Shown here piece after piece: positions 10,450 through 63,603 of a DNA stretch of 64,000 nt (position 1 is the first letter of the stretch; every line of letters begins with the position of its first letter). Source of the stretch: an uncultured Clostridia bacterium (GTDB lineage Bacteria; Bacillota; Clostridia; UBA1381); contig CALXWJ010000021.1 in NCBI GenBank assembly GCA_944392335.1, positions 1 to 64,000 of the forward strand, in the 5' to 3' direction. The notes beneath the pieces are model-generated. The model was not told the DNA's origin, ran no database searches, and saw only the letters and a list, made by a program, of their open reading frames with translations. The position numbers were made by a program, and so were the translations under genes.

Positions 10450-10602
10450 TTATATTATCTTTATCATATTTAATTCAATAAGGGGCAGATTCTCCCATTC
10501 AATATTTTTGGCAAAGGGCTGTACTTCTTCCACAAAATAAAACGGGGCACATCTTAATTTTATTGTACTTTCAGATTTACAAAACGTGTAGGAAATTATA
10601 AA
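10450..10602 (-). pseudogene. In-frame coding remnant behind the fucosidase stop
   Basis: Directly after the TAA of the fucosidase the same reading frame stays open for about 50 codons to a stop at 10450-10452. The implied peptide looks protein-like, with STIKLRCAPFYFVEEVQPF followed by NIEWENLPLIEL. It has no start codon with a ribosome site. It may be the decayed tail of a lost gene, or an old C-terminal extension cut off by a new stop codon. I do not recognise the family. Confidence 0.4.
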
Positions 10603-21670: not shown

Positions 21671-21744
21671 CCTTATTTGATAAAATTATTCAATTTTTTC
21701 GCTGTTTTACGTGAAACCTCAATTCCCAAAAATAAATAATCATT

Positions 21745-21910
21745 TAATAAGGATTTGTCCCGTCATTCAACTATGACAAGAGCGAAACAGGTGATTCGTG
21801 AATCGCCCATACGTTACTGCACTGTGAGCAGTGGGAGATCGTACCCTCACTGCTCACAAATATGGAACCCGCCGCCGATTACGGCGGGGGACAACATGTT
21901 CGCAGTAATA
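21745..21910 (+). repeat. Dispersed structured repeat, copy 1 (most complete)
   Basis: Begins AATAAGGATTTGTCCCGTC and ends with a GTTCGCAGT version of the shared right end. It contains a small GATTC-GT-GAATC hairpin (21793-21804), a main hairpin of 11 perfect pairs (21823-21833 with 21848-21858) around ATCGTAC, and a second hairpin CCCGCCG/CGGCGGG (21868-21888). Related copies are at 43392, 49359, 52074 and 63459. It lies between the divergent SGNH and cysE genes. The 62-codon ORF across it appears spurious. The rest of the 21562-22213 gap is AT-rich promoter and leader DNA. Confidence 0.75.
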
Positions 21911-29501: not shown

Positions 29502-30172
29502 AGTCTGTAAATACAGATCTTCTATGATAATTACTTGATTATACAGCCGTAAATTTGATTTCGGCTTACGATTTAGTTATACTGCAAAATTCTACGCATG
29601 TCAAGAAAAGGCGTAAAATTCACGTCTTTTTTTGATGTGAATTTTAAGTTATTCCGGCAGTCGCCCTCCATACATTATACTTAATTCGCCATAGACTTGT
29701 GCCTAATTTCGAATTGTTACAGTCTATTTTTTTTGTTGCTTCAAAAGTTGACAGATATAGAGCTTTTAAAAGAGCTATATCGCTCGGAAATACGCTTCTC
29801 TGTCGATTAAGTTTCGATACACAGCATTCAGTCTTTTGATAGCATTGGTGGTATAAATGACCTTCCTGACTGTGGATGAAAATTTAAAAATTGGAGATAT
29901 TGAATCCCATTTATCTTTCCAGCACTTCATTGAATTTGGGTATTTAGGTGTCCATTCTGCTGTAACTCGTTCTAATGCCTCCTGAATATCCTCTGTTGTT
30001 TCGATGTCATACTCCTGAAGAAGTTGACGGATAATGTTCCTTTTTCCCTCTGTCATTACTACTTTGTGTACTGGTTTCTTTTCTTTTGCCATGATTAAAG
30101 GCCTTCTTATGATTTTTATTTTATCATGGAAGACCTTTATTTTCAACTTTTACAGAAAAACTTTCACAGACA
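29502..30172 (-). mobile_element. Internally deleted IS256-family element
   Basis: The right boundary is the end shared with 123-180. The left boundary near 29502 (GTCTGTA, then CTTCTATGATAA) matches that end in inverted orientation, though imperfectly. Inside is a broken transposase with only its first 40 and last 100 or so codons. It cannot transpose on its own. I could not identify target-site duplications with confidence. Confidence 0.7.
29649..30092 (-). pseudogene. IS256-family transposase remnant
   Basis: The start (MAKEKKPVHKVVMTEGKRN) is the normal N-terminus of an IS256/mutator transposase. About 40 codons in, it jumps to the C-terminal part (KYPNSMKCWKDKWDSISPIF, then TVRKVIYTTNAI), so the DDE catalytic core is deleted. 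Near 29780 a frameshift breaks the frame: the family sequence continues as SVFPSDIALLKALYLSTFEA in a second frame. A second shift near 29690 leads to ELSIMYGGRLPE and the stop at 29649. One deletion plus two frameshifts mean it is long dead. Confidence 0.88.
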
Positions 30173-43316: not shown

Positions 43317-43350
43317 CTGCAAAAAAAATAGTCCGATATAATACCGAACT
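43317..43350 (-). terminator. Terminator of the fatty-acid operon
   Basis: Read on the minus strand, AGTTCGGTAT and ATATCGGACT pair (8 of 10) and are followed by ATTTTTTTTG. It lies about 100 bases beyond accA. The rest of 43197-43316 shows only a distant 8-base inverted repeat (GAGCATAG at 43204, CTATGCTC at 43303). Confidence 0.6.
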
Positions 43351-43391
43351 AAAAACAGATTTTAACACGTCTAAGCCTATGATTTTATATT

Positions 43392-43453
43392 CCCTGATTA
43401 CAGATATGTCCCCCGCCGTTTCAGAGGCGAGGGATATTTTGTCCGCCGTTATA
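43392..43453 (+). repeat. Dispersed structured repeat, copy 2 (3' half)
   Basis: Contains CCCTGATTACAGATATG, corresponding to the 3' arm of the main hairpin in other copies, then a second hairpin CCCCCGCC/GGCGAGGG (43410-43433) and the right end TTTTGTCCGCCGTTATA. The left half is missing or diverged. The right end overlaps the accA stop codon by a few bases. Confidence 0.6.
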
Positions 43454-49317: not shown

Positions 49318-49358
49318 TTTTGTTACTCCATTCCACTGCTTTATATGCAACACGATTT

Positions 49359-49496
49359 ATAACTGCGGACAAGATATTCCCTCCGTAATCGCCGGCTTCA
49401 GTATTTGTAATCAGTAAGAGTACAATTTCCCGCTGATTACAGAGCAAGCTTTGTTTGCGCTATTATCCCGTCAAATGACAGGACAAGACTTTATTG
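49359..49496 (-). repeat. Dispersed structured repeat, copy 3, inside the fab operon
   Basis: On the minus strand it reads AATAAAGTCTTGTCCTGTC at the left and TCTTGTCCGCAGTTATA at the right. The main hairpin has TGTAATCAG paired perfectly with CTGATTACA (49433-49441 with 49406-49414) around ATTGTACT. It lies 42 bases upstream of the fabK start, in the sense orientation of the operon. The remaining 49497-49818 is AT-rich; a TTAGTATACTA palindrome near 49666 is the only other item seen. Confidence 0.75.
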
Positions 49497-49818
49497 CATA
49501 AAAAAATCAATTCTTTGCATAAATCGCGTTATATAATTTTTACTTAAATTAATATAAATTTCATGTTATATGGCAAAATCTAATAAAATTTTTCACAAAA
49601 TTTAAGAAGCAAAATCAAAGATTCTGTCTTCTTTATGTTTGTTTGCCGAAATAGTATACTAACAAACAAAAGAGTTCCGGAAAATATTTACAATGCAAAC
49701 CGTGCAAAATCTAAATTCGGCAAAATGCTTTGCAAATTGTATTTTCAGTAAACATCTGTACTATAAGAATGACTTAAGCTTCGTTTTGCTTCATCTGTCT
49801 GCAATATCCAAAAAATAA

Positions 49819-51915: not shown

Positions 51916-52073
51916 AACAGACTTTACATAATTTTTTTAGTTTTAAAATCAGGCTTGAAAATCATCTTACATTACATCAGAGCAACGCTCCATCAATCTG
52001 GTTTGAGGCGGAACTTAAAAACGTTGTAACCAGCAATAAAGAGAGTTAGCTCCTCAGCGTTTCAGTTGTAGGC

Positions 52074-52170
52074 TCAAATAAGGGCTTGTCCCTTTATTCA
52101 TTGTACTCCCACAAATTAAAGACATAAAAACCGACGCCGATTACAAAAGGTGCATCTTGTCCGCAGTTGT
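52074..52170 (+). repeat. Dispersed structured repeat, copy 4 (shortened)
   Basis: Left end AATAAGGGCTTGTCC and right end TCTTGTCCGCAGTTGTA are both well kept, with the ATTGTACT loop and CCGATTAC between them, but the main stem is eroded. It lies just beyond the eno stop codon and antisense to its transcript. Confidence 0.65.
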
Positions 52171-52185
52171 ACTGTGTCTTAATAA

Positions 52186-63319: not shown

Positions 63320-63458
63320 TACAAGTAGGCAAACAAATCCAATTTTTTCTAATCTTTAACAAAAAAAATCAAATTATTTAATAATAATGTTATTTTTTGT
63401 AAGGATAGATACAGTAAAATACATTTTATATAAAATGTATAGTTAAATTTTATATATT

Positions 63459-63560
63459 CGATAAGGGCTTATCTCGTCATTCAACAAGAACAAAAGCAAA
63501 CCGGTGCTGAGCTGTAATCAGTGAGAGATTGTACTTTCACCGATTACAGATATGGATCCT
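63459..63560 (+). repeat. Dispersed structured repeat, copy 5 (no right end)
   Basis: Left end GATAAGGGCTTATCTCGTC. The main hairpin extends CTGTAATC (63512-63519) with GATTACAG (63542-63549) and further inner pairs (GTGA/TCAC), around the ATTGTACT loop, then ATATGGATCC. The second hairpin and the right end are absent. It lies between divergent zapA and ptsH. The rest of 63320-63458 and 63561-63600 is AT-rich. Confidence 0.7.
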
Positions 63561-63603
63561 TTTATGTTTATTTTCAATAATGCAAAATAAATTATTTATA
63601 ATT

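Follow-up and report, generated by a model that had tools for sequence, protein, structure and literature searches.

What is the hairpin-rich repeat that lies between genes at position 21743 of this DNA, and how does it spread? The window, that is, the whole stretch of 64,000 nucleotides that was analysed, belongs to a genome of 3.64 Mb in 99 contigs (99.5% complete; G000). An initial annotation had described at least five related dispersed segments in it, which could represent a non-autonomous mobile element (MITE- or REP-like) or a structured RNA. We searched for them with two covariance models, R1, built from 60 copies of this genome, and R2, built across genera.

Copies in the window, the genome and the class

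All five segments are real. R1 found four copies in the window and R2 two further degraded ones, including a sixth that had not been listed (10474-10567, + strand, TTCAATAAGGGGC ... CATCTTAATTTTATTGTA; R2 32.9 bits, E=3.3e-5). The first description also holds for the shared ends, for the central and second hairpins and for the AT(T/C)GTA loop of the former. Copy 1, which has the long (168-type) form, occupies positions 21743-21905 on the + strand, the one presented here, from TTTAATAAGG to CAG (R1 192.7 bits over 21743-21910), its ends being placed by the nested copies discussed below. Its target pentamer, TAATA where the consensus is TTATA (21906-21910, +), would lie outside the element, since a second element replaces TTATA at tandem junctions. 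From left to right, copy 1 contains on the + strand the P1 hairpin (TTTGTC ... GACAAG, 21754-21780), the P2 central hairpin (21823-21858) with its loop ATCGTA at 21838-21843, and the P4 hairpin (CCCGCCG/CGGCGGG, 21868-21888), all three of which covary between genera. Between P1 and P2 lies a REP-like block, CGTATGGGCGATTCACGAATCACCTG on the minus strand (21788-21813), which makes the long form: it is missing from the 145-nt form, and the same REP precedes the RAYT gene in G000. A short-form copy lies on the minus strand at 49363-49498 (R1 122.9 bits over 49358-49498), with its target TTATA at 49358-49362. The remaining copies are on the + strand: one with a lost or decayed right part at 63457-63600 (R1 86.3 bits over 63457-63596; R2 42.3 bits), a degraded one with an internal deletion at 52074-52171 (R1 36.7 bits; also matched by R2), and another degraded one at 43318-43453, whose clear part is P4 and the right end (R2 27.0 bits, E=9e-4). 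Just left of the 52074 copy, positions 51990-52066 (...GAGTTAGCTCCTCAGCGTTTCAG) resemble the left part of another, longer subfamily (G045, G049, and G127), and this site may be composite. The window also carries a 53-nt repeat, 98% identical between 128-180 and 30119-30171, which by eye is unrelated to the element.

At least 150 R1 matches were found in G000, all with E < 1e-16. A sample of 820 kb, drawn from contigs already known to carry copies, gave 90 R1 matches at E up to 1e-3, from which only a rough extrapolation can be made to a few hundred copies in the whole genome. Copies would make up roughly 1% of the genome. The element is 140-170 nt long, intergenic and without a gene, and comes in two forms of ~145 and ~168 nt, the first two hairpins of the longer one being separated by an additional block. 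Almost every copy (84/85) is intergenic, whereas the figure for target pentamers is 18%, in keeping with a removal by selection of copies that enter genes. No autonomous copy, with its ends enclosing a gene, was found in the 820 kb of G000, nor at the apparently unpaired ends from G055, G070, and G071, most of which proved to be ordinary elements whose right part is changed or extended. One copy (L276:2184-2476, +, contig C1) has its P1 and P2 separated by ~150 nt of foreign sequence that resembles a gene fragment with an open frame, which suggests that the P1-P2 slot is able to hold cargo. Elsewhere (L258:13484-13535, contig C97), the palindrome of the P1 part stands alone (AATAAGGGCTTGT...ACAAGCCCTTTTTGAATAA), possibly as a minimal derivative.

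Of 69 genomes from the same family, 17 carry diverged subfamilies, and related ones were identified in 40 of 391 sampled Clostridia genomes belonging to many families; the class-wide counts per genome are lower bounds (8 candidates scored in each). Congeners are very unequal: G000 has at least 150 copies and G003 has 9, with none found in G001 and G002, both of which are smaller and less complete. A 29-nt core (the P4 pattern) was found in 78 stretches of a contig collection, mostly from MAGs named Oscillospiraceae or Clostridia, and also in Anaerovirgula multivorans and an Alkaliphilus MAG. An exact 37-mer of the local subfamily had no match in this collection, which may not include its own species. 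From genus to genus the ends, GTCATTCAACG, P4, and ACATCTT stay constant and the stems vary. Several subfamilies also allow pairing of the right end with the sequence that follows P1, e.g., AACGAGGC/GCCTCGTT (seen by eye, uncounted). Extra hairpin blocks in copies of the MAG SIG622 (G071; L361, L342, and L347), located in the P4 loop and between P1 and P2, bring the element to lengths of up to ~300 nt. No record of the plasmid and phage collections matched the element; two copies were seen on one viral contig. Rfam 15 gave no relevant match at gathering or relaxed thresholds, group II introns included, and no description of the element was found in the open literature, most subscription papers being outside this coverage.

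Ends, target site and hairpins

The copies have in common a left end TTCAATAAGG and a right end GCAGTTATA or similar, beyond which nothing is conserved. Four loci carry two elements head to tail, and there the older AG is followed directly by TTCAATAAGG where a lone copy has AG followed by TTATA; these nested junctions have only TT in common. The simplest reading is that the newer copy was inserted at AG^TTATA of the older one. The element would then run from TTCAATAAGG to AG, and TTATA would be a pre-existing, one-sided target. The initial annotation had counted this final TTATA as part of the repeat, whose right boundary is corrected here. Exact TTATA directly follows 53 of 85 copies, and the fixed pentamer is present on the right side only; seen from the complementary strand, insertion would occur directly 3' of TATAA. 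No repeated flanks were found in a scan of 89 copies for target duplication, and no terminal inverted repeats were found in the element. In the congener G003, no element was present at the places matching the 63457 and 52074 copies, where the flanks are too diverged for exact junctions. G000 and G003 share a stretch of 2.1 kb beside a tRNA at 98% identity (L086 versus L253/L049), compared with ~70-82% for the genes of the window, which may reflect recent transfer or binning contamination.

Hairpins lie just inside both ends of the element (P1 and P3/P4). Between genera, P1, P2, and P4 showed 86.9% standard pairs, against 82.3% in shuffles, and 35 doubly changed cells, against 13.9 (0/500 shuffles); control b of this test likewise favored the true register. 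P2 alone was 87% paired, against 80 ± 1.1% (27 sequences, the stems being placed by the loop motif only and one of them, L097, by hand). The claim that compensatory change keeps the hairpin therefore holds between genera, but barely within G000, where pairing in P1, P2, and P4 was not clearly above that of shuffles (91.4 versus 91.1%). Copy 1 is alone, or nearly alone, among 60 copies in having its two doubly changed pairs. Moreover, within G000, G.T numbered 73 and A.C 84 on the strand presented here (one consensus G.T pair left out). Since pairing is close to that of shuffles and G.T is not favored, the inserted copies of G000 look like decaying inserts, which decay about neutrally and without detectable function. 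Either strand of well-kept elements, as single-stranded DNA, folds strongly (z of -5.6 to -9.7), whereas the degraded window copy at 49358 does not.

Orientation relative to replication

In G000, the TATAA^CT strand of the element lies on the G-rich strand in 72 of 85 elements according to GC skew, and a test based on the majority of genes gave an identical 72:13, the G-rich strand being the one from which most genes are read. In Firmicutes chromosomes, the G-rich, gene-majority strand is the lagging-strand template. We therefore infer, from GC skew and gene bias alone, that the TATAA^[CT...TTGAA] strand is carried by the lagging-strand template. The ratio was 23:3 at convergent or divergent gene pairs and 8:2 where local genes oppose the skew, so neighboring transcription does not explain the bias. 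Only 52% of intergenic TATAA are on the bias strand (P of about 3e-10 for the bias against target availability). Promoter -10 boxes were ruled out as the cause of the orientation, given this 52% and the persistence of the bias between convergent genes. Other genomes gave 38:13 by 8-kb local skew, and 5/5 in Anaerovirgula. Nine of the 13 copies in the opposite orientation are found in two stretches of G000 (C97:80000-148000 and C1:1-36000) where GC skew is unchanged, possibly as a result of recent rearrangement or of an assembly effect.

Mobility, candidate enzymes and related systems

The absence of target duplication, the fixed one-sided target, the subterminal hairpins and the lagging-template bias are together traits of IS200/IS605 elements and point to single-strand, replication-coupled transposition. 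Use of the lagging-strand template, subterminal hairpins, and lack of target duplication have been described for IS608 and ISDra2 (PMC6006769; PMC7290912). The element is thus probably a non-autonomous mobile DNA that moves as a single strand in this IS200/IS605- or REP-like way. The presumed active strand would be the complement of the one presented here, TATAA^[CT...hairpins...CTTATTGAA]. A HUH nuclease (Y1 type), or a similar single-strand nuclease acting in trans, would recognize the folded ends, cut the element out of the lagging-strand template and join it behind another TATAA, and the fold would be kept in lineages that go on moving while inserted copies decay. What we observe behind this proposal are the fixed ends, the one-sided TATAA, newer copies nested at the TATAA of an older copy, hairpins that covary and lie close to each end, and the strand bias. 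Counting against it, no transposase could be linked to the element, and 13 of 85 copies, partly clustered, have the opposite orientation. The mobile, non-autonomous nature proposed at the outset is supported by the at least 150 dispersed copies, their ends and target, the nested tandem copies and their absence from readable syntenic sites of the congener. The initial annotation had named a lack of further copies, of covarying pairs or of shared boundaries as what would speak against its finding; all three were found.

G000 encodes two Y1-domain proteins. One is a RAYT by NCBIfam (81.4 bits, with a cut-off of 80), encoded at L291:1447-1977 (-) on contig C49, and its gene is preceded by several REP hairpins of type GTAGGGGCGATTCACGAATCGCCC. 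This REP also makes up the additional block of the 168-nt form, so that the resident RAYT could be thought to move the whole element as an oversized REP/BIME. This is improbable: the short form and most other genera are devoid of that REP, no RAYT was seen in several element-bearing genomes (some of them incomplete), and beside the RAYT gene no element was found above E=0.01, different REPs standing there. The evident partner of the RAYT is the GTAGGGGCGATTCACGAATCGCCC-type REP and not the element. The second Y1-like protein (281 aa) shows, by inspection, DKVHM at the place expected for the HUH motif. Across genomes, some of them incomplete, the presence of Y1 or RAYT genes does not track the element, and none of the Y1 loci examined adjoins one, a result weakened by the incomplete genomes. 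IS200 elements of relatives were ruled out as parents, their ends being unrelated to the element, and no IS608-like guide sequences could be assigned by eye 5' of the hairpin feet. A class-wide single-strand family moved by an unrecognized enzyme, or by the replication or repair machinery, rather than by a known Y1, with folded DNA as the main determinant, would be an unlikely version.

The remaining explanations differ in how they account for orientation and fold. Retrotransposition of a group II intron-like or SINE-like kind, in which an RNA copy is inserted into lagging-strand-template DNA, would likewise leave the target unduplicated and produce a strand bias. Such a bias is known for some group II introns, and a fold of several hairpins with conserved unpaired segments would suit an RNA. 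We consider this very unlikely given the lack of any Rfam match, the absence of a preference for G.T over A.C within G000 and the equally good single-stranded DNA folds on either strand. This last point bears also on the idea that insertion is random in orientation and that selection then removes one of the two, for instance because strong hairpins disturb the replication fork. They could indeed matter for the fork, but they form about equally on both strands and the best-kept copies (at least 150 bits) are already biased, 19:4, which leaves this explanation with very little probability. Least likely of all are functional structured RNAs, cis-regulatory or small, kept by selection. The covariation between genera and the intergenic position of 84/85 copies would agree with them. 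Yet orientation tracks replication rather than neighboring genes and transcription, inserted copies of G000 lose pairing about as fast as shuffles, without compensatory change or a preference for G.T, and copy number is very unequal between congeners. The structured RNA offered as an alternative in the initial annotation is accordingly disfavored, and single-strand transposition remains our preferred reading.

Compared with IS200/IS605 elements (IS608 and ISDra2) and their non-autonomous derivatives, the repeat has in common the subterminal hairpins, insertion 3' of a fixed pentanucleotide, the lack of target duplication and the lagging-template bias. It differs by having no tnpA in any copy seen, no assigned IS608-like guides, several extra conserved hairpins and the target TATAA, and by ends unrelated to those of the IS200 elements of relatives. 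Like the REP/REPIN/BIME sequences associated with RAYTs (GTAG superfamily; Di Nocera 2013, PMC3733652), it is a palindromic DNA present between genes in high copy number and presumed to move in single-stranded form, but it is 115-170 nt long, contains at least three hairpins, has a fixed end on each side and is not beside a RAYT. The sole GTAG tag at a hairpin foot belongs to the REP nested in the long form, the short form being without it. CGTC-tagged REPs (PMC3733652) recall the P1 of the element followed by CGTCATTC and have no known dedicated transposase; their stems, however, are of 8-9 bp with the tag directly at the stem, and the likeness may be due to chance. The text of that survey makes no mention of Firmicutes or Clostridia. 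Classical bacterial MITEs are likewise short, non-autonomous, dispersed, and intergenic, but the element shows a replication-strand bias, and neither terminal inverted repeats nor target duplication were found in it. The element works like REPs and IS200/IS605 derivatives, yet falls outside the REP definition (GTAG tag and RAYT association), and its transposase is only putative.

Single-strand transposition coupled to replication is known chiefly from IS608, ISDra2, and REPs. Which enzyme moves the element would be a concrete question, and the expected circle junction would be ...TTATTGAA joined to CT... If our reading is true, the direction of replication in assembled genomes could be told from the element as a natural marker. 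Mobility of this kind would then reach an abundant group of bacteria, through a non-coding element of several hairpins and a defined target that is spread over many families of Clostridia.
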